Source: Pseudomonas sp. P5_109
GTDB lineage: Bacteria; Pseudomonadota; Gammaproteobacteria; Pseudomonadales; Pseudomonadaceae
Length of the DNA stretch: 64,000 bases
Reading direction: 5' to 3'
Assembly: GCF_034009455.1 (NCBI RefSeq)
Contig: NZ_CP125380.1
Location: 3,857,501 to 3,921,500 of the forward strand
Shown: positions 34,561-64,000 of the stretch, piece by piece
Position numbering within the stretch: position 1 is the stretch's first letter
Layout of the letters: the number at the start of each line of letters is the position of its first letter
Program-made: the position numbers and the translations under genes
Notes under the pieces: model-generated
The model's input: only the letters and a program-made list of their open reading frames with translations
Database searches by the model: none
What the model was told of the DNA's origin: nothing

Positions 34561-34652
34561 ATGTGGGAGCGGGCTTGCTCGCGAAGGCGTAGTGTCAGTC
34601 GACATCACTTTTGAATGACCAACCGCATTCGCGAGCAAGCCCGCTTCCACAA
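34561..34652. repeat. REP inverted pair (GTGGGAGCGGGCTTGCTCGC family)
   Basis: Arms TGTGGGAGCGGGCTTGCTCG and its near complement surround GTCAGTCGACATCAC-type spacer sequence. A third REP family in this window. Confidence 0.85.
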
Positions 34653-42923: not shown

Positions 42924-42990
42924 CTTCGCGAGCAAGCCCGCTCCCACATTTGAAATGCATTCCATTGTGGGAGCGGGCTTGCTCGCGAAG
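42924..42990. repeat. REP inverted pair (GTGGGAGCGGGCTTGCTCGC family)
   Basis: A right-arm copy (CGCGAGCAAGCCCGCTCCCA) followed 17 bases later by a left-arm copy. It stands inside the catabolic operon, between the binding-protein and amidohydrolase genes. Confidence 0.85.
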
Positions 42991-55544: not shown

Positions 55545-56288
55545 ATGACTAAAAATATCATACCCAGAGCCTCGACCCTAACATCAATATTCATAAAAGA
55601 ACAATTAAAAGAACCCATCGCCCTTTTCTGGATCATGATATCACCTTGCGCGATGTTCTATTTTTTTGCAATAACCAGACAAGACCCCAACTATTTTTCC
55701 AGCAATTACGTTACAGCTTCAGCATGGTTTTATGCCTACATCTCTTCCAGCGTTGCATTATTCGGATTCGCCTTTTACATAATCGGAAGAAGAGAAAGCG
55801 GATTCACCCGATCATTTATTTACTCCAAGGAATCGAAACTGATTTTTCTTTTATCGCACTTCACAGCCTACTCATTAATATCAATATCTTATTGCGCAAC
55901 TTTTTACTTAACGACCAAATTACCATTTGGAAACTACGACCTCAATGAACTACTGAATATCACACCACGCTTTTACATCTGCTTCATCATGTTTTGCACG
56001 ATCGGAGCTGTTTTCTCATTATTGCCGATCAACTTTCAGAATTCGAACACTTTGCTTTCCATTTTTTCGTTCTGCATGCTGATTCTCGGAGTAATGAGTG
56101 CAAGCAGATCAAACCCCATCACCGACGCCTTGAACCTCGCAAACCCACTGACACTTGCAAGCCGGATAATGGAACAGGGCCTTGAATCCAACAAACTCAT
56201 CACAACAGCAATAATTATTGTATTTATCTTAGTACTGCACAAAACCTTCAAACACCTAAGAATCAATCCCGTATGGAGCCGATACTGA
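55545..56288 (+). CDS. ABC-2 type exporter permease
   Basis: A 247-residue membrane protein with about six transmembrane helices, beginning MTKNIIPRASTLTSIFIKEQ, a layout typical of ABC-2 half-transporter permeases. It is strongly AT-rich, in contrast to flanking genes, suggesting recent transfer. The ribosome-binding site is weak. The stop overlaps the start of the ATPase (TGATG). Such small pairs export peptides, polysaccharides, antibiotics or lipids, and no cargo gene is evident here. Confidence 0.8.
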   Translation: MTKNIIPRASTLTSIFIKEQLKEPIALFWIMISPCAMFYFFAITRQDPNYFSSNYVTASAWFYAYISSSVALFGFAFYIIGRRESGFTRSFIYSKESKLIFLLSHFTAYSLISISYCATFYLTTKLPFGNYDLNELLNITPRFYICFIMFCTIGAVFSLLPINFQNSNTLLSIFSFCMLILGVMSASRSNPITDALNLANPLTLASRIMEQGLESNKLITTAIIIVFILVLHKTFKHLRINPVWSRY

Positions 56289-57007
56289 TGAAAAAATTCA
56301 CGGCGCAGGGCATTGACTTCTCCTATACAGACAACCCCCTCTTGACCCAGGCATCTCTTGAGGTTGCTCAAGGCAACATTGTCGGTATTCTGGGACCCAA
56401 TGGATCTGGAAAAACAACTTTTTTCGATATCGTCTGCAAGCTTAAAAAAGCAAAGTCCGGCTTGATAAAAAACGACTTCAGTCAGTTTTTATACCTTTCT
56501 CAAATCATCACCACTCCCCCGCCGCTGCGCATGCGCGACATTTTTAAAATGGTGACTGCGCTGTCATCAAGCGAGCCTATGACACAGGATAAGACCTTAA
56601 AAAAACTAAGTGCGTGGAGCCCTGCAATAGTTGACCGATATCAAGACATATGGAACAAAAAATCATCGCTATGCAGCTACGGAGAGACACGCTGGTTCTT
56701 TACGCTCACTCTTCTTTCAATTTCTGCAGACTTCGTGATTCTCGACGAACCTACCGCCGGTGTAGATCCGGAATTTCGGCGCTATATTTGGCAGTGCCTA
56801 CGCGGCGCCGCCAGTGAGGGCACCGCTATTCTGGTTTCCTCGCACAATGTTGATGAAGTCATTAACCATTGTGATTATTTCTACATGATTAGCCAGAAGC
56901 GCTTCAATCGCTTTGCCAATGGTAGGGAGTTCATGCATCGGTATAACGTGAAGACTGTGGACGATGCGTTTATCCGAGCCGTTACTGAGCCTGTATTCAC
57001 CGCATAA
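56288..57007 (+). CDS. ABC exporter ATP-binding subunit with unusual signature
   Basis: A 239-residue ATPase with Walker A GPNGSGKTTF, Walker B FVILDEPTAGVDPEFRR and switch VSSHNVDEV. The signature reads SLCSYGETRW where LSGGQ is expected. The start is the ATG overlapping the permease stop: an in-frame ATG 15 bases earlier is less likely. AT-rich like its partner. ATP hydrolysis may still occur, since relaxed SYG-type signatures are seen in some ABC-2 ATPases. Confidence 0.82.
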   Translation: MKKFTAQGIDFSYTDNPLLTQASLEVAQGNIVGILGPNGSGKTTFFDIVCKLKKAKSGLIKNDFSQFLYLSQIITTPPPLRMRDIFKMVTALSSSEPMTQDKTLKKLSAWSPAIVDRYQDIWNKKSSLCSYGETRWFFTLTLLSISADFVILDEPTAGVDPEFRRYIWQCLRGAASEGTAILVSSHNVDEVINHCDYFYMISQKRFNRFANGREFMHRYNVKTVDDAFIRAVTEPVFTA

Positions 57008-57108: not shown

Positions 57109-57384
57109 TCAGGTCAGAGCAGAGAGATACGCCCACGGATAAATCCCCCGCTCATGCCCATCACTGAACACCAGTTGCAGGCCATACCCCTGCGAATGCA
57201 ATTCGATCACCTGAACCCGCGCATCGACCATCGGCGCCATCCCCCGCAAACGAAACGCCCGACACTGCGAACACGGGCACTGCCGGCGCAGTTCGGCATG
57301 ATCCAGCACCTGCTCGCGGCCATCCGGCCAGTTCAGGCGCAACTGCTGTTTGCTGCGGGAATTGCCAATCGCCAGCGGGTTCAT
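57109..57384 (-). CDS. DUF971 protein
   Basis: A 91-residue protein of the DUF971 family, related to the N-terminal domain of gamma-butyrobetaine hydroxylase. It carries a CPCSQCR cysteine motif (about residues 37-43) that could bind zinc or iron-sulfur, and ends GYGLQLVFSDGHERGIYPWAYL. The start overlaps the HEAT gene by four bases (ATGA), so it is the last gene of the flavoprotein/ABC operon. A partial decayed copy lies at 55014-55110. The family has links to Fe-S proteins, but its role here is unknown. Confidence 0.87.
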   Translation of the reverse strand: MNPLAIGNSRSKQQLRLNWPDGREQVLDHAELRRQCPCSQCRAFRLRGMAPMVDARVQVIELHSQGYGLQLVFSDGHERGIYPWAYLSALT

Positions 57385-58343
57385 TGCAGTTGGCTCAAGG
57401 CAATGCGCACGGCCTTGCGTACTTCAGGGTCGCCGTCGTCCTGTGCGGCCTGCAACGGCGCGATGGCCCGGGGGTCGCTCAATTCGCCGAGGGCCAGCGC
57501 GGCTTCCTTGCGCAGGTTGCTGATGCGGTGGCCGAGGGTGTCGATCAGGGCTTCGAGCGCCGGTACAAAACGCAAGCGGCCGAGGCTGCGGGTGGCGCGC
57601 AGACGCACCTGCCAGTAGTCGTCGCCCAAGGCATCGATCAGGGCCGGGCCGGCGTCGGGGTGGCCGACCTTGCCCAGGGTGGTGGCGGCTTCTTCGCGGA
57701 CTTGCCAGGCTGCGTCGCGCAAGGCCTGGCGCAGGGCTGGCAGCACTTGTGCGTCAGACGCAAGACCCAATGCGCCGGTGGCGGCACGCCGCACCTCGGT
57801 GTCCGGGTCAGCGCTGGCCAACTGCGCCAGTGCCGGCAAGGCATCGAGTTGCTTGAGCCAGCCGAGCACGCCCACCGCCTCGCGGCGCACGCTGGCGCTT
57901 TCATCAATCAATGCCCGGGTAGCGGCATCGGCGGCATCAGGGCAGCGCAACTCGCGCAACGCCCTGAACGCGGCGATGCGTACGCCGCTGTCGGCGTGCC
58001 CGGTCCACGGCAGAATGACCCGGCCCGCCGCCTCGCTCTTGAGCAGGCTGAGACTCTGCGCAGCGGCTGCCTGCACCGCCGGCGACGGGTCCGTCAGCGC
58101 CTGGCACAACGCCTCGACCACCGGCTCGTCCTCCCAGGCTTCCAGCAACCGCGCGGCTTCGGCGCGAACGTCTGCAATCGGGTCTTCGGCCAGTCGATCG
58201 GTCAACCACAGCAGGCCGTCCGGCTCCTCGAGATCGGCCAGTTCGATCAGCGCGATCCGGCGTACGCCGGGGTCGTCATCGGTCAGGCGCGGTTGCAGGG
58301 CAAGAATGTCGTCGTTATCGGTTACATCGAATAGTGAGGTCAT
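57381..58343 (-). CDS. HEAT-repeat protein
   Basis: A 320-residue soluble protein made almost entirely of about ten HEAT/PBS-lyase-like helical repeats of ~31 residues, each with a D-x-x-VR-x-x-A-x-x-LG core (for example DPDTEVRRAATGALGLASD and DDYWQVRLRATRSLGRL). No catalytic motif is visible, so a scaffold or maturation role is likely. It overlaps the ATPase gene upstream and the DUF971 gene downstream by four bases each. Such fine coupling to an importer and redox pair is unusual. Confidence 0.88.
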   Translation of the reverse strand: MTSLFDVTDNDDILALQPRLTDDDPGVRRIALIELADLEEPDGLLWLTDRLAEDPIADVRAEAARLLEAWEDEPVVEALCQALTDPSPAVQAAAAQSLSLLKSEAAGRVILPWTGHADSGVRIAAFRALRELRCPDAADAATRALIDESASVRREAVGVLGWLKQLDALPALAQLASADPDTEVRRAATGALGLASDAQVLPALRQALRDAAWQVREEAATTLGKVGHPDAGPALIDALGDDYWQVRLRATRSLGRLRFVPALEALIDTLGHRISNLRKEAALALGELSDPRAIAPLQAAQDDGDPEVRKAVRIALSQLQ

Positions 58344-59188
58344 AGGGCAAATCGCGGCAGTTTGTTTTCAGGGGGAAGTCCGAGCGGGTTCAGGCGCGGC
58401 AGTTGCCGGCCGTCTTCGTGGCGCAGGAGTTCGAGGCAATGACGCTTGAGGTGCGAGAATTCAGGGCGGGTCATCAGTTCCGTGCTGCGCGGCCGGGGGA
58501 ACTCCAGGCGCAGGTCTTCGATGATTCGCCCGGGGCGCGTGCTCATGACCAGCAAGCGATCGGCGAGGAACAGCGCTTCGTCGATGTCATGGGTGACGAA
58601 CACCACGGTGGTGCGGATGCGCGTCCAGATGTCCAGCAGCAGTTCCTGCATGTTCAACCGGGTCAGGGCGTCGAGGGCGCCGAAGGGTTCGTCCATCAGT
58701 AACAGGCGCGGGCGGTTGACCAGCACCCGGGCGATTTCCACCCGTTGCTGCATGCCGCCGGAGAGCTGATCGGGCCAGCGCCCGGCAAAACCTTCGAGGC
58801 CCACCAGGGCGAGAATTTCATCCGCCGCCTTGTGCCGTTCAAGCTTGCCGACACCGCGCATCTTCAAGCCGAACGCCACGTTGTCACGCACCGTGCGCCA
58901 CGGAAACAGGGTGTGCTGCTGGAACACCATGCCGCGTTGTGGCGATGGCCCCGACACCGGCGCGCCATCCACGTTCAAGGTGCCGGTGCGCGGTTGCAGG
59001 TGGCCGGCCAGAGCGCCGAGCAAGGTGGACTTGCCGCAACCGGACGGCCCGAGAATGCACACGAACTGCCCCGGTTCGATCTGGCAATCGAGGCCCTGCA
59101 CCGCTTCGAAAGCCGCGGCCCCTTCGCCCAGGCTGATCGACAGCCCGCGAATGTCGATGCGCCCTTCCAGGTGTTGAAAAACGCTCAT
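58340..59188 (-). CDS. SsuB/TauB-type ABC importer ATPase
   Basis: A 282-residue ATPase of the nitrate/sulfonate/taurine class. It has Walker A GPSGCGKST, signature LSGGMQQRVEIARVL, Walker B LLLMDEPFGALD and switch VTHDIDEALFLAD. The start MSVFQHLEGRIDIRG overlaps the permease stop (TGATG). The longer open frame upstream is a shadow in the permease gene. The C-terminal ~30 residues (PRLNPLGLPPENKLPRF) extend slightly beyond SsuB. Confidence 0.92.
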   Translation of the reverse strand: MSVFQHLEGRIDIRGLSISLGEGAAAFEAVQGLDCQIEPGQFVCILGPSGCGKSTLLGALAGHLQPRTGTLNVDGAPVSGPSPQRGMVFQQHTLFPWRTVRDNVAFGLKMRGVGKLERHKAADEILALVGLEGFAGRWPDQLSGGMQQRVEIARVLVNRPRLLLMDEPFGALDALTRLNMQELLLDIWTRIRTTVVFVTHDIDEALFLADRLLVMSTRPGRIIEDLRLEFPRPRSTELMTRPEFSHLKRHCLELLRHEDGRQLPRLNPLGLPPENKLPRFAL

Positions 59189-59970
59189 CAGGCTTTTCCT
59201 CGTGGTCGATGCCAGGGCGTGAACAGCCCGCCCAGACGCTTGATCAGCAGGCTGCTGCCCATGCCGAGCACGCCGATCAGCAACATGCCGACGACGATGT
59301 CGGCGTAGTTCTGGATGGTGTAGGACTCCCAGGTGTAATAGCCGATGCCGAATTGGCCGGAGATCATTTCCGCCGTCACCAGGCAGAACCACGAGGTGCC
59401 CATGCCGATGGCCAGGCCGGTGATGATGCTCGGCGCGGCGCCCGGAAGAATCACCTCCAGCAGGATGGCCCGGCGCCCTGCCCCGAGGCTTTTCGCCGAG
59501 GCGATCAGCCGTGGGTCGACGCCTTCGACGCCATGCACGGTGTTGAGCAGGATCGGGAACAGTGCGCCGGTGAAGGTGATGAACACCATCGACAGTTCCG
59601 ATGACGGGAACATCAGGATGGCCAGGGGAATCCACGCCACCGCCGGAATCGGGCGCAACACTTCAAGGGGCGGCAGCAGCAGATCTTCGGCCCATTTCGA
59701 GCGGCCGATGGCCAGGCCCAGGGCAACGCCAATGACCAGCGCTGCGAGGTAACCGGCGAACACCCGGCCGAGGCTGCTGCCCAGGTGCTGCGCGAGCTTG
59801 CCGGAGTCGCCGAGGCCGAGGGCGGCTTCAACGACCGCCACGGGTGTCGGGACGTTAGCGAAGGTCACCAGGCCGAGGTTCCAGTGGTGGCTGGCGGCGA
59901 GTTGCCAGAACAGCAGGCAGAGCAGCAGTGAAGCGGCCCTGGGGAGCCAGCGAGAATAGGATCGGTACAC
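59188..59970 (-). CDS. SsuC/TauC-type ABC importer permease
   Basis: A 260-residue inner-membrane permease with about six helices and the EAA-like loop IASAKSLGAGRRAILLEVILPGAAPSI, here split as IASAKSLGAGRRAILLEVIL and onward. It matches the nitrate/sulfonate/bicarbonate class. The GTG start (VYRSYSRWLPRAAS) follows GAGGAATAATT. An upstream ATG would extend into the REP pair at 59996-60082. It precedes the ATPase with a one-base overlap. Confidence 0.9.
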   Translation of the reverse strand: MYRSYSRWLPRAASLLLCLLFWQLAASHHWNLGLVTFANVPTPVAVVEAALGLGDSGKLAQHLGSSLGRVFAGYLAALVIGVALGLAIGRSKWAEDLLLPPLEVLRPIPAVAWIPLAILMFPSSELSMVFITFTGALFPILLNTVHGVEGVDPRLIASAKSLGAGRRAILLEVILPGAAPSIITGLAIGMGTSWFCLVTAEMISGQFGIGYYTWESYTIQNYADIVVGMLLIGVLGMGSSLLIKRLGGLFTPWHRPRGKA

Positions 59971-59995
59971 AATTATTCCTCTCAACCAAAAACCC

Positions 59996-60082
59996 GTAGG
60001 AGCGGCTTGCTGGCGATAGCGGCGGGTCATCGACATCAATGTTGAATGTCAGTCAGCAATCGCCAGCAAGCCGGCTCCTACA
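59996..60082. repeat. REPIN (GTAGGAGCNGGCTTGCTGGC family) inside the operon
   Basis: Inverted arms flank a GTCATCGACATCAATGTTG middle. It sits between the binding-protein gene and the permease gene of one transcript. Confidence 0.82.
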
Positions 60083-60085
60083 GGG

Positions 60086-61489
60086 TTAGCGGGTGGCCAC
60101 GGCCTGCGCTGTGGCATCGGTGAAATCGAAGACTTTGCCGCCTTGCGCGCTGGCGAACTGCTGGGCCTGGCCTTTGAGCAGGAACGCATTCAGCTGCCCT
60201 TTGCCATCGGTGGCAAACCACGCCTGATCCGCCAGCAACTTGATCCCGCTGTCACTGGCCTGGGCGTACACCGCGCGGATGTTTTTGCCTTCCTGCTTCA
60301 AGGCTGCCAGCGCGGCAAACGCCGCTTGCGCCGAGGCGTACTGACGGACTTTCGGCTCGCCGCGCACCCAGATTTCCGCCACGTGACTGAAGTCGGTGAT
60401 GGCTTTGCCGCTGGCGGCATCGACGGCTGTGAGCGGTGTCTGCTGGTAGTTCGCAAGCTGCGCGCTGTAGTCCAGGTTCGAGGCCTTGAAGGCGGCGCGG
60501 ATGTACTGGTCGTCGATGAAGGTGTTGAGATCGAGACCGCGATCGGCCTTCTTCAACAACTTGAGGGTATCGATGGCGGTGCCCACGGCCTGACGGTATT
60601 CCGGCTTCCAGCTCAGGTCGCGGGTCTGCACGCCGAGGGGGCCGTGGAACAGGTAGTTGACCTCGGCATCGACCCCGGTGACCTTGGCGATCAGCTCGCT
60701 GTATTTCTCCGGTTCAGCCGCCAGCAGCTGGTTGGCTTCGATGCTCGCGCGCAGGTAAGCGACGACGATTTCCGGGTACTTCTGCGCATAGGCCTGGTCG
60801 ACCAGCGCGCCGTGGAAGGTCGGCGCACTGGCCTGGGAGCCGTCATAGATCTTGCGGGCGAAGCCACGGCTGGGGAACAGTTCGGCGAATGGCACGAAGT
60901 CGGCGTGAGCATCGATCTTTCCAGCCTGCAACGCGGAGCCGGCGACTTCCGGCGGCTGGGCGATGATGTTGACGTCCTTGAGCGGGTCCCAGCCCTGGGC
61001 CGCCACGGCTCGCAGCAACATGCCATGGGCGGTGGAGGCGAACGGCACGGAGATGGTCTTGCCCTTGAGTTCGGCCAGCGACTGCACGCCCGACGCACTC
61101 GGTACGACGATACCGTTGCCACTGCCCTTGGTGCTGCCCGACAGCACGCTGATAAACAGACTGTGCTTGCCTGCCGTTTCGAACGCCACGCCGTTGAACG
61201 CGCCGGGGAAGTCGGCCATGGCGCCGAAGTCGAGTTTTCCGGCGACCATCTCGTTGGTCAGCGGTGCGCCGCTGGTGAAGTTTTTCCACTGCACGTCGTA
61301 ATGGGCGTCCTTGTAGGGGCCGTCGTGGGGCAGGTATTTGTCCAGTAGCCCGAGTTCGCGAATCAACAGACCGCCGGCGGCGCAGTTGATGGTGGTGTCC
61401 TGGGTGCCGATGGCAATGCGGATGGTTTCGGCCGAGGCCGACAACGTGAATGAAGCCAGTACCAGACCGGCCAAAGTTGCACGCAACAT
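60086..61489 (-). CDS. Long SsuA/NrtA-like periplasmic binding protein
   Basis: A 467-residue exported protein with signal peptide MLRATLAGLVLASFTLSASA and the mature start ETIRIAIGTQDTTINC. The body matches sulfonate/nitrate binding proteins (GKTISVPFASTAHGMLLRA, AGKIDAHADFVPFAELFP), but it is about 130 residues longer than SsuA or TauA. The extra C-terminal part includes AQASDSGIKLLADQAWFA. GAGGGGAAACACTC precedes the ATG. The ligand is unknown: a sulfonate-like or other oxyanionic molecule is suggested by family only. Confidence 0.88.
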   Translation of the reverse strand: MLRATLAGLVLASFTLSASAETIRIAIGTQDTTINCAAGGLLIRELGLLDKYLPHDGPYKDAHYDVQWKNFTSGAPLTNEMVAGKLDFGAMADFPGAFNGVAFETAGKHSLFISVLSGSTKGSGNGIVVPSASGVQSLAELKGKTISVPFASTAHGMLLRAVAAQGWDPLKDVNIIAQPPEVAGSALQAGKIDAHADFVPFAELFPSRGFARKIYDGSQASAPTFHGALVDQAYAQKYPEIVVAYLRASIEANQLLAAEPEKYSELIAKVTGVDAEVNYLFHGPLGVQTRDLSWKPEYRQAVGTAIDTLKLLKKADRGLDLNTFIDDQYIRAAFKASNLDYSAQLANYQQTPLTAVDAASGKAITDFSHVAEIWVRGEPKVRQYASAQAAFAALAALKQEGKNIRAVYAQASDSGIKLLADQAWFATDGKGQLNAFLLKGQAQQFASAQGGKVFDFTDATAQAVATR

Positions 61490-61621
61490 GAGTGTTTCCC
61501 CTCGAATCATTTATAGGATGTTCGTCTCCGCCACGATCAGGGCGTGGTGGGAAACGAGGGGTGTTGTGAATCAGGCGTCCGGTGGTTGCCGGATGGCGTT
61601 TTGGGTTGTCTGTGCTGGCCT

Positions 61622-61779
61622 CTTCGCGAGCAAGCCCGCTCCCACAGTTTTTCTGGTGTACACAAGACCTGCGACTGGCCACCATCCCCTGTGGGAGCGG
61701 GCTTGCTCGCGAAGGCGTCCTGTCAGTCAATGGGGATGCCAGCTGTGCCGGCCTCTTCGCGAGCAAGCCCGCTCCCACA
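61622..61779. repeat. Three REP arms (GTGGGAGCGGGCTTGCTCGC family)
   Basis: Arms lie at 61622-61647, 61690-61715 and 61753-61779 in alternating orientation, between the ferredoxin and binding-protein genes. Confidence 0.85.
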
Positions 61780-61790
61780 TGGACTGTGTT

Positions 61791-62036
61791 TCAGCGCAGC
61801 AGGTACGGGATCTCGACTTTCACCGCCCCGGTCGGGCAGTCCTTTTCGCAGGGCATGCAGTACCAGCATTCATCGAAGGCCATGTAGGCCTTTTGCGTGG
61901 CCGGGTTGATTGCCAGCAGGTCCATCGGGCACACGTCGACACACACGGTGCAGCCTTTGTGGGCGATGCAAAGGTCCTCATCGACCGTGACCGGTGCGTT
62001 GGAGCGGAAGAAGATTTCCTGGGGTTGGTAAGCCAT
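61791..62036 (-). CDS. 2x[4Fe-4S] ferredoxin, partner of the flavoprotein
   Basis: An 81-residue ferredoxin with eight cluster cysteines in two sets, DLCIAHKGCTVCVDVCP and DECWYCMPCEKDCPTG, each spaced for a [4Fe-4S] cluster. The wide spacing of the first set and the WYC in the second resemble the AprB subunit of adenylylsulfate reductase, though AprB is about twice as long. The start MAYQPQEIFF was chosen over an upstream extension into the flavoprotein gene. It follows that gene by 26 bases and presumably carries its electrons. Confidence 0.9.
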   Translation of the reverse strand: MAYQPQEIFFRSNAPVTVDEDLCIAHKGCTVCVDVCPMDLLAINPATQKAYMAFDECWYCMPCEKDCPTGAVKVEIPYLLR

Positions 62037-62062
62037 GTTCAGTCTCTCTCTTGTTGTCGGCA

Positions 62063-63793
62063 TCAAGCCGCATCGGCACCGACCCGCAACCGGTCGTAGG
62101 CCTGCATCTCGTCGGCATCCAGCGGGATGATGTAAGGCTCGACGGCTTTCTTGAAACTGCTCATCAACCCGTTTTCGTCCTTCTTCAGGTGGCAATGGCA
62201 GAACCAGTCGCGGTCGTTGCGCTGCGGGTGATCGACGCGATGGTGGTACAGCCCCCAGCGGCTTTCGGCGCGGAACAATGAAGCGCGGGCAGCCATTTCG
62301 GCGCAGTCGCGGATCATGCTGACTTCCATGGCGCGCATCAGTTCGTGGGCGTTGTGGGCCTTGATCTGGTCGAGGTCGCGCTGGATGTCGCTGAAGCGTT
62401 GCAGGCCGATCTGCATCTTCTTCGTCACTTTCGGCGGTTGCAGGTAGTCGTTGACGAAGCGCCGCAGCTTGTACTCGACCTGGGCCGGTGGCAGGCCATG
62501 TTCGCGGTCCAGCGGCGCGTAGACCCGTTGTTTTTCGGTTTCGATCTGTGCCGTATCCAGGGCGGAAAACTCGCGCCCGGCGACAAAATCCGCCGCGTTG
62601 TTACCGGCGAACCAGCCGTAGGTGAACGCGCCGAGCATGTAGTTGTGCGGCACCGCGGCCATGTCGCCCGCCGAGTACAGGCCCTTGACCGAGGTCTCGG
62701 CCTTTTCGTTGACCCACACCCCCGACGCCGAATGCCCGCTGCAAAAGCCGATCTCGGAGATGTGCATCTCGACCATCTGCGTGCGGTAGTCGGTGCCGCG
62801 ATTGGCGTGGAACTGGCCACGGCTCGGACGCTCGTTGCTGTGCAGGATCTCTTCGATGTTCTGGATGGTTTCCTCGGCCAGGTGATCGAGCTTGAGGAAC
62901 ACCGGACCATTGCCGCTTTCCAGCTCCTGATGGAATTCCCACATCATCTGCCCGCTCCAGTAGTCGCACTCGATGAAGCGTTCACCCTTGTTGTTGGCGG
63001 TGTAGCCACCCAAGGGACCGGTGACATAGGCACACGCCGGGCCGTTGTAATCCTTGATCAGCGGGTTGATCTGGAAGCACTCCAGGTTCGCCAGTTCGGC
63101 CCCGGCGTGGTAGGCCATCGAGTAGCCGTCGCCGGCATTGGTCGGGTTTTCGTAAGTGCCCATCAGGTAGCCCGAGGACGGCAAGCCGAGGCGTCCGGCG
63201 GCGCCGCAGGCGAGGATCACCGCCTTGGCCTTGATCACATGGAAGTCAGCGGTTCGGCAATCGAAGCCCATCACGCCGTTGACCGCGCCCTCTTCATCCG
63301 TGAGCAAACGGGTGCAGACCAGGCGATTGGTGATGCTCACCCGCGCCCTTTTCAACTGGCGATAGAGGACCTTCTTGATGTCGTGCCCTTCCGGCATCGG
63401 CAACACGTAGGCGCCCATGTGGTGGACCTTTTTCACCGCGTAGTCGCCGGTTTCGTCCTTCTCGAATTTCACGCCCCAGCGGTCCAGTTGCTCGATAGTT
63501 TCGAAACTGTGGGTGGCATAGGCGTACACCGCGGCCTGGTTGACGATGCCGTCGTTGGCGATGGTGATTTCCTTGGTGTACTGCTCCGGCGTCGAGTGGC
63601 CGGGAATGATCGCGTTGTTCAGGCCGTCCATGCCCATGCTGATCGCGCCGCTGCGCTTGACGTTGGCCTTGTCGATCAACAGCACCCGCAGGTCGCGGTT
63701 GCGCTCCTTGGCCTTGATCGCCGCCATGGGGCCGGCGGTGCCGCCACCGATCACGACGATGTCGTATTCCTGCTCCAACGTGCTGCGCGTCAT
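62063..63793 (-). CDS. FAD-dependent reductase, AprA / fumarate-reductase-like
   Basis: A 576-residue soluble flavoprotein. The N-terminal dinucleotide motif VVIGGGTAGPMAAIKAKE binds FAD, and AISMGMDGLNNAI follows as in the fumarate reductase/AprA superfamily. A later GLYSAGDMAAVPHNYMLGAF segment completes the FAD fold, and the C-terminus is helical. A linked 8-Cys ferredoxin, and no membrane anchor or SdhB-type protein, favour an AprA-like rather than a succinate dehydrogenase role. The start overlaps the regulator gene by four bases. The substrate is unknown. Confidence 0.88.
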   Translation of the reverse strand: MTRSTLEQEYDIVVIGGGTAGPMAAIKAKERNRDLRVLLIDKANVKRSGAISMGMDGLNNAIIPGHSTPEQYTKEITIANDGIVNQAAVYAYATHSFETIEQLDRWGVKFEKDETGDYAVKKVHHMGAYVLPMPEGHDIKKVLYRQLKRARVSITNRLVCTRLLTDEEGAVNGVMGFDCRTADFHVIKAKAVILACGAAGRLGLPSSGYLMGTYENPTNAGDGYSMAYHAGAELANLECFQINPLIKDYNGPACAYVTGPLGGYTANNKGERFIECDYWSGQMMWEFHQELESGNGPVFLKLDHLAEETIQNIEEILHSNERPSRGQFHANRGTDYRTQMVEMHISEIGFCSGHSASGVWVNEKAETSVKGLYSAGDMAAVPHNYMLGAFTYGWFAGNNAADFVAGREFSALDTAQIETEKQRVYAPLDREHGLPPAQVEYKLRRFVNDYLQPPKVTKKMQIGLQRFSDIQRDLDQIKAHNAHELMRAMEVSMIRDCAEMAARASLFRAESRWGLYHHRVDHPQRNDRDWFCHCHLKKDENGLMSSFKKAVEPYIIPLDADEMQAYDRLRVGADAA

Positions 63794-64000
63794 GCCTGAC
63801 CCCCTTTTTGCCGGTCGATCCGCAGGCGGTACTGGAAGGCATCGCCACGGTAGTAAAGGTGTTCGAAGTCCAGCGGCCGACCGTCGACATCGTGGGTCAG
63901 GCGCTCGATGCGCATGATCGGCGAGCCAGGTTCGACATTCAGCGCCTGGGTCAGGTCGCTGTCGGCCAGTACCGCATCGATGGCCAGGTCGGCGTGCCCC
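63790..64000 (-). CDS. GntR-family regulator with UTRA domain (partial, C-terminus)
   Basis: The last ~69 codons of a gene running off the right edge. The translation contains LNVEPGSPIMRIERLTHDVD, then GRPLDFEHLYYRGDAFQYRL, the end of a UTRA ligand-binding domain as found in HutC/FarR-type GntR regulators. The stop overlaps the flavoprotein start (ATGA), so the regulator heads the operon and may autoregulate. Its DNA-binding domain lies outside the window. Confidence 0.87.
   Translation of the reverse strand, partial: GHADLAIDAVLADSDLTQALNVEPGSPIMRIERLTHDVDGRPLDFEHLYYRGDAFQYRLRIDRQKGGQA

Follow-up and report, generated by a model that had tools for sequence, protein, structure and literature searches.

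The closest described relatives of the system considered here are adenosine 5′-phosphosulfate (APS) reductase, AprBA, and the methanogen 3′-phosphoadenosine 5′-phosphosulfate (PAPS) reductase (8a8o). Both pair a flavin adenine dinucleotide (FAD)-binding alpha subunit of the fumarate-reductase superfamily with an 8-Cys, two-cluster beta subunit. AprA and PAPS reductase are described as acting on sulfur via the flavin N5 (PMC10322725, PMC7662398). Two further described systems are relevant: the SsuABC- and TauABC-type importers, which combine an NMT1-type binding protein with one permease and one ATPase, and the eukaryotic Fe-S scaffold HCF101, in which DUF971 is the C-terminal domain beside FeS_assembly_P and ParA domains. 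A 2021 paper calls the function of DUF971 in HCF101 elusive (PMC7980591). Elements resembling each of these occur together in a 64,000-nt stretch of the genome of the soil bacterium Pseudomonas sp. P5_109 (NZ_CP125380.1, positions 3,857,501-3,921,500), referred to below as the window and used as the coordinate system throughout. Here the minus strand between 57109 and 64000 carries eight genes, encoding a GntR-family regulator, a flavoprotein, an 8-Cys ferredoxin, the three components of an ATP-binding cassette (ABC) importer, a HEAT-repeat protein and a small DUF971 protein. Unlike AprBA and PAPS reductase, the flavoprotein-ferredoxin pair is thus coupled to an importer, a HEAT protein and DUF971. 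We propose that the operon forms a self-contained system that imports an organosulfur compound, probably of the sulfonate type, and reduces it, a proposal whose chances, judged from sequence comparisons, we put at about even. The family to which the enzyme belongs is related to AprA and has no function described in the literature found, and literature searches, with limited reach into subscription journals, turned up no paper on this system.

The order of the eight genes is kept in 74 of 80 Pseudomonas loci, and such identity of arrangement is not attributable to chance. Four of the six deviating loci (L014, L024, L040 and L049) end at the locus boundary and one (L055) has no detectable regulator. 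The sixth (L082) retains the regulator, flavoprotein, ferredoxin, HEAT and DUF971 genes, the cognate importer being missing. The region downstream in L082 encodes a TauD-family protein, a binding protein of the SsuA type that scores 149.8 bits (cut-off 163.5) and, as identified by tblastn and by reading, a double permease with an ATPase; within L082:13577-18300 the genes for the SsuA-type binding protein and the TauD-family dioxygenase occupy one strand and those for the double permease and the ATPase the opposite strand. The analysis was extended to 398 sampled Pseudomonadota genomes, 21 of which carry the flavoprotein (E 1e-60 or better). Ten of these are of the same class as P5_109; the other 11 belong to a second proteobacterial class, inferred from kinship and probably Alphaproteobacteria. 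The initial annotation had called for a neighbourhood comparison across proteobacteria, and its grouping stands up to this: genes for the ferredoxin, the HEAT protein and DUF971 lie near the flavoprotein gene in all 21 genomes (20 loci scanned, the P5_109 locus taken from the window). Since the flavoprotein is present in four of 11 sampled genomes of the same genus, it represents an accessory trait. Among 17 loci examined out of 51 flavoprotein-bearing records of a plasmid collection (one of them, from Nonomuraea, chromosome-sized and without annotation), the ferredoxin and HEAT genes accompany the flavoprotein in 17 (HEAT being fused to it in two actinobacterial loci) and the DUF971 gene in seven.

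The importer follows a looser pattern. A search for the binding protein (E 1e-40 or better) detected it in 20 of the 398 genomes, each of which also has the flavoprotein; the two are remote from each other in genome G028, and G324 is the one flavoprotein-bearing genome in which no binding protein was found. Binding proteins aligned from the second class fall into two groups, with 68-69% and 38-44% identity to the P5_109 protein. These groups, together with the losses, suggest that importers have been exchanged around a constant enzyme core. The initial annotation had expected the HEAT and DUF971 genes to be conserved beside the importer. At L082, L122 and L126, where the cognate importer is missing or lies elsewhere, both genes remain beside the enzyme.

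The flavoprotein belongs fully to the NCBIfam family NF006131/PRK08275, and scores 870 bits against the related HEAT-fused model PRK13800 (NF010374; cut-off 1196). Its nearest solved relatives are the PAPS reductase alpha subunit (214 bits to 8a8o) and AprA, and those among the nearest to the ferredoxin include AprB (3gyx_B, 2.2e-9) and the PAPS reductase beta subunit. In a tree built from 19 family members of three phyla, six AprA sequences and the SdhA and NadB proteins of P5_109, the family groups with AprA with a support of 0.996 (0.83 for the family itself). Residues N59, K247, H354 and H383 of the family are common to all six AprA proteins. N59 and H354, present in all 19 members, occupy the positions of AprA Asn74 and His398 (Archaeoglobus fulgidus numbering), which we take to be active-site residues along with Arg265. 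The Arg265 position is held by Arg in all six AprA sequences but by Leu245 in all 19 family members, and the flavoprotein is therefore no APS reductase. Consistent with this rejection, its score against the AprA model TIGR02061 (191.1 bits) falls below the cut-off of 641.75. The term "AprBA-like" used in the initial annotation is thus justified for lineage and subunit make-up, including the eight cysteines of the ferredoxin, which are indeed present, but the enzyme misses the AprA cut-off and lacks Arg265.

An ordinary fumarate reductase or succinate dehydrogenase was rejected as well, since key residues and partners differ. The PRK08275 and PRK13800 models are labelled only "fumarate reductase/succinate dehydrogenase flavoprotein subunit", a label for which the residues found here give no support. 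The Arg aligned in SdhA and NadB of P5_109, presumably the catalytic Arg of succinate dehydrogenase/fumarate reductase, is replaced by Cys or Ser in 19 of 19 family members, and the operon genes include neither a membrane anchor nor a partner of the SdhB/FrdB type. As many as 196 of 576 positions are invariant across the 19 sequences, and 76 of these residues are absent from the AprA, SdhA and NadB proteins compared. The family thus represents an enzyme in its own right, which probably acts on a substrate of its own.

The HEAT gene is on the same strand as the flavoprotein gene in all 21 genomes. Its product scores 86 bits, under the cut-off of 1196, against the HEAT part of the fused PRK13800 model (898 positions), and the two polypeptides are joined in an 893-residue Tsukamurella protein and in a 939-residue Nonomuraea reading frame. 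As fusion is a classic sign of physical partnership, these actinobacterial loci point to contact between the HEAT protein and the flavoprotein, for which the former is proposed to serve as a scaffold or assembly subunit.

At the 20 loci scanned, the E values of the DUF971 gene near the flavoprotein range from 7e-9 to 6e-45, and the P5_109 protein matches the solved structure 3luu at 2.9e-12. It shares the flavoprotein strand in 15 of 21 genomes. In the other six, all of one genus (L128 and L130-L134), it is divergent from the enzyme and lies on the importer strand, with a Crp-type regulator gene between the divergent parts, so that DUF971 is less clearly tied to the enzyme alone than HEAT is. 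At all four cyanobacterial loci an Mrp/NBP35 gene follows the HEAT gene and DUF971 is not found nearby. The Mrp/NBP35 gene overlaps the HEAT gene by 8 bases at three of these loci and is separated from it by about 250 bp in Nostoc. Three of the cyanobacterial Mrp proteins were checked and contain FeS_assembly_P and NUBPL-type ParA domains and no DUF971, whereas HCF101 ends in a DUF971 domain. The presence of Mrp in place of DUF971 appears to be the strongest clue to the role of the latter; as HCF101 joins these very domains, DUF971 may aid the loading of Fe-S clusters. In contrast to HCF101, DUF971 here is a separate small protein, and its CxCxxC motif is not always present. The motif reads CPCSQC in P5_109 and is complete in 12 of 17 aligned DUF971 sequences, the P5_109 protein included; it is incomplete in the frames from L122, L127, L129, L141 and L149. 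These five broken motifs argue against a simple metal-ligand role and against those cysteines being essential.

At ten of the 17 plasmid-collection loci, DUF971 was not found near the flavoprotein, the search covering these neighbourhoods and not the rest of the genomes. Six non-cyanobacterial loci are without a nearby DUF971; five of them have no annotated Mrp and the sixth is unannotated. Such absences, the divergent DUF971 genes of the six genomes and the fact that HEAT proteins are common and varied would all be expected if the HEAT and DUF971 genes were unrelated passengers of the operon. This appears very improbable to us, since a HEAT gene accompanies the flavoprotein in all 21 genomes and at all 17 plasmid-collection loci (two with fusions), DUF971 does so in every one of the 21 genomes, and both persist beside the enzyme without its cognate importer (L082, L122). 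The suggestion of the initial annotation that the two proteins scaffold or mature the enzyme fits the co-occurrence, the HEAT fusion and the use of Mrp where DUF971 is missing, and accords less well with the six divergent loci.

The importer had been described as being of the SsuABC type. As far as composition goes this is correct, but the binding protein misses the SsuA cut-off and carries an additional domain, and a plain SsuABC importer was therefore rejected. Among NCBIfam models the binding protein scores highest with SsuA_fam (cut-off 163.5), ahead of TauA (90.9 bits, cut-off 304.25); the best model for the ATPase is of the TauB type (261 bits, cut-off 357). The operon further differs from SsuABC/TauABC systems in having no monooxygenase or TauD inside it. 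The binding-protein gene likely starts at the ATG at 61489, which is preceded by GAGGGGAAACACTC (read from the sequence). Its C-terminal domain, not noticed in the initial annotation, is NosL-like and spans approximately residues 360-474 of the frame beginning at 61510 (60086-60490, minus strand). The Pfam NosL model scores 23.2 bits with the domain alone (9.7e-5) and 18.5 bits with the whole protein, not reaching the cut-off of 24. Comparison by hhalign with seven NosL sequences (chosen among 14 fetched for bearing the CGM and DM motifs) gave 98.4% (E 8e-15), against 0.9% for a control. The fusion of a NosL-like domain to an ABC substrate-binding protein is alignable in relatives from several phyla. 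The P5_109 protein matches the NosL profile but does not keep CGM and DM, motifs that we take to have a copper role in NosL, and its genome contains no NosL at E 1e-12. Delivery of copper to nitrous-oxide reductase is thus unlikely, and a function of the domain in copper delivery was rejected on account of the lost motifs.

The direction of electron flow was approached through neighbouring genes. Nine of the 11 genomes of the second class encode a ferredoxin-NADP reductase no more than about 7 kb away from the flavoprotein; eight of these nine have a further strong match to such a reductase elsewhere. Two of the nearby reductases were checked against NF008178 and score 132 and 164 bits, below the equivalog cut-off of 390. 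In aerobes, ferredoxin-NADP reductase usually reduces ferredoxin with reduced nicotinamide adenine dinucleotide phosphate (NADPH). The nearby gene therefore points to NADPH-driven reduction, and lends indirect support to the idea of the initial annotation that an imported compound is reduced, the class of the substrate being suggested by other genes (see below). The enzyme could also work oxidatively, as a dehydrogenase or a sulfite-handling enzyme passing electrons from its substrate to the ferredoxin and on to carriers of the cell. Many relatives in the superfamily are dehydrogenases, and AprBA runs in reverse in sulfur oxidisers. We nevertheless find this quite unlikely, because the partner encoded nearby in nine of 11 genomes is a ferredoxin-NADP reductase and because no cytochrome or quinone partner was seen in the annotated tables of the 17 plasmid-collection loci (tables that are incomplete and in one case empty). 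On the Acidithiobacillus caldus plasmid pTcM1, a gene downstream of flavoprotein, ferredoxin, HEAT and FdxA genes encodes a 1153-residue FAD/NAD oxidoreductase, mostly without Pfam domains (L135:10574-14035), possibly another electron donor.

A working model of the organosulfur reductase can be outlined as follows. The binding protein, permease and ATPase would import the compound into the cytoplasm. Electrons from NADPH would pass via ferredoxin-NADP reductase and the 8-Cys ferredoxin to the FAD of the flavoprotein, the reductase being a dedicated one in many genomes of the second class and the general one in Pseudomonas. Flavoprotein and ferredoxin would form an alpha-beta enzyme resembling AprBA and PAPS reductase, and the compound would be reduced at the flavin, with sulfite maybe among the products. 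The HEAT protein would bind the flavoprotein as a subunit with a structural or assembly role. DUF971 would help to load the Fe-S clusters, a task that Mrp/NBP35 might perform in cyanobacteria. The GntR regulator would repress the operon from a single palindromic operator until a ligand arrives. By analogy with the N5 mechanism ascribed to AprA and PAPS reductase in the papers cited above, N5 chemistry on a sulfo group would be a reasonable, if unproven, guess here.

Several genes near the enzyme bear on the nature of the substrate. The putative sulfate exporter YeiH is encoded within 8 kb of the flavoprotein in six of the 21 genomes, each such genome having one or two copies. According to the annotation, three cyanobacterial loci carry both YeiH and TauE/SafE genes, and the Aquabacterium, Rhizobium N324 and Acinetobacter loci have TauE/SafE or TSUP genes. 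A sulfite product would explain the sulfite/sulfate exporter genes where they occur. L127, L141, L142 and L143 have additional binding proteins of the SsuA type or oxidoreductases of the LLM/NtaA type. Together, the exporters and the SsuA-type binding proteins hint at a substrate of the organosulfur class; whether it is in fact such a compound, probably a sulfonate, we consider an even call. The same enzyme module could instead reduce or dehydrogenate a nitrogen compound, amine or organic acid brought in by the importer, in line with the activities of other proteins of the fumarate-reductase superfamily. This would accord with the permease, which scores about equally with Sao-, nitrate- and SsuC-type models, and with the ATPase, which matches taurine, nitrate and Sao types, every one of these scores being below the cut-off. 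Regulators with GntR and UTRA domains such as HutC and PhnF, distant model matches of the present one, control other catabolic pathways, and at some loci the annotation shows no sulfur genes in the neighbourhood. A non-sulfur substrate remains somewhat doubtful in our view: the closest solved relatives are sulfur-nucleotide reductases, the Arg of SdhA and NadB, whose catalytic role is presumed, has given way to Cys or Ser in all 19 members, and sulfite/sulfate exporter families recur in the vicinity.

The organosulfur proposal can be taken one step further. The system might carry out an oxygen-independent reductive desulfonation driven by NADPH and ferredoxin, in which the AprA-related flavoenzyme, assisted by a HEAT subunit and by DUF971 or Mrp as its dedicated Fe-S loader, would cleave the C-S bond of an imported sulfonate at flavin N5. 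It would then provide proteobacteria, cyanobacteria and actinobacteria with an alternative to the SsuD- and TauD-type oxygenases. In this full form we regard the proposal as doubtful. Along with the DUF971 exceptions described above, a number of results weigh against the organosulfur reductase model as such. The binding protein scores below the cut-off of every sulfonate model. The change of Arg265 to Leu, and that of the AprA Trp234 position to Tyr in all 19 family members, mean that AprA chemistry is not simply transferable. Five of the six YeiH cases come from one genus, and every TauE match listed for the 21 genomes is more than 10 kb away from the flavoprotein. Ferredoxin-NADP reductase is nearby in none of the ten genomes of the same class as P5_109, and the Pseudomonas locus itself has neither this reductase nor an exporter beside it. 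Finally, the predicted structural models of the flavoprotein and the binding protein (predicted local distance difference test, pLDDT, of 41 and 48, respectively) are too poor for use, the NosL fold included.

The putative operator was recognized as a palindrome, ACTTGTTATAACAAGT or close to it, situated directly before the regulator gene in 16 Pseudomonas loci listed (0-3 mismatches). It likewise precedes the regulator in Aquabacterium, Acinetobacter, Paraburkholderia and two further loci of the same class (2-3 mismatches), and an exact copy lies between the regulator and the flavoprotein in Cupriavidus. The A. caldus locus has a site with four mismatches; L123, L138 and L148 have none at up to four. 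At that threshold the palindrome is found in 80 of 80 Pseudomonas loci, a weak result taken alone as about one chance match per 20-kb locus is expected (estimate). In the P5_109 genome, the 14-base core occurs exactly once, at 64552-64565, beyond the window end, and at one other place with one mismatch; a reversed-core control gave two matches. A single exact palindrome would fit a local regulator. The regulator gene itself is truncated by the window end: the complete gene extends 542 nt beyond it, encodes 250 amino acids (frame at L084:7291-8043, the P5_109 locus) and includes a GntR helix-turn-helix identified by reading its translation.

The positions of the genes are collected in the table. 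As stated in the initial annotation, all eight genes share one strand and most junctions overlap. Of the seven junctions, four overlap, by a single base or by four: regulator/flavoprotein (63790-63793), permease/ATPase (the single base 59188), ATPase/HEAT (58340-58343) and HEAT/DUF971 (57381-57384). The remaining three are gaps, of 26 bp between the flavoprotein and ferredoxin genes, 280 bp between those for the ferredoxin and the binding protein and 115 bp between the latter and the permease gene. The 280-bp gap contains copies of a repeat of the repetitive extragenic palindromic (REP) type, which in the window stands in inverted arrangement at 34565-34648, 42926-42988 and 61624-61776. Genome-wide, 590 + 596 copies of this repeat were counted with at most one mismatch. 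With more than 1,000 occurrences it was rejected as an element of the system, and the gap is no functional break in itself. No RNA element was found in L084 (0 Rfam matches at the gathering score). Convergent to the operon, a two-gene cassette at 55545-57007 (plus strand) encodes, by reading, an ABC-type membrane protein and an ATPase; its G+C content of 43%, compared to 64% for the operon and 60% for the window, suggests that it was perhaps acquired. Genes for a GNAT acetyltransferase and an amidase recur near the module in Methylocystis and Nostoc (L139:11928-14113, L142:13001-18432).

Table. Features of the flavoprotein operon of Pseudomonas sp. P5_109, in window coordinates.
Feature	Position	Strand	Basis
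GntR-family regulator with UTRA domain, C-terminal part	63790..64000	-	UTRA 53.5 bits
FAD flavoprotein, catalytic alpha subunit, NF006131/PRK08275 family	62063..63793	-	1140 bits, cut-off 587
8-Cys 2x[4Fe-4S] ferredoxin, beta subunit, 81 amino acids	61791..62036	-	Fer4_7
Periplasmic binding protein, NMT1/SsuA-type, with NosL-like C-terminal domain	60086..61489	-	SsuA_fam 125.8 bits, NosL comparison
ABC permease, GTG start	59188..59970	-	BPD_transp_1 83.9 bits
ABC ATPase	58340..59188	-	ABC_tran 119.5 bits
HEAT-repeat protein, proposed scaffold/assembly subunit of the flavoprotein	57381..58343	-	HEAT_2 191 bits
DUF971 (GBBH-like_N) protein with CPCSQC motif, proposed Fe-S maturation factor	57109..57384	-	74.8 bits, cut-off 22.8
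Three copies of a REP-type repeat in the ferredoxin/binding-protein gap	61624..61776	.	genome-wide repeat count

These findings affect the annotation of many genomes, since the family, of which there are at least 590 confirmed stretches, goes under the name of fumarate reductase though it does not have the key residue of that enzyme. The widespread DUF971 protein gains a candidate partner enzyme in an operon that is patchily distributed and presumably dispensable, which makes its suspected role in Fe-S loading directly testable. If the substrate is indeed a sulfonate, the system would offer a route to its sulfur that does not require oxygen.

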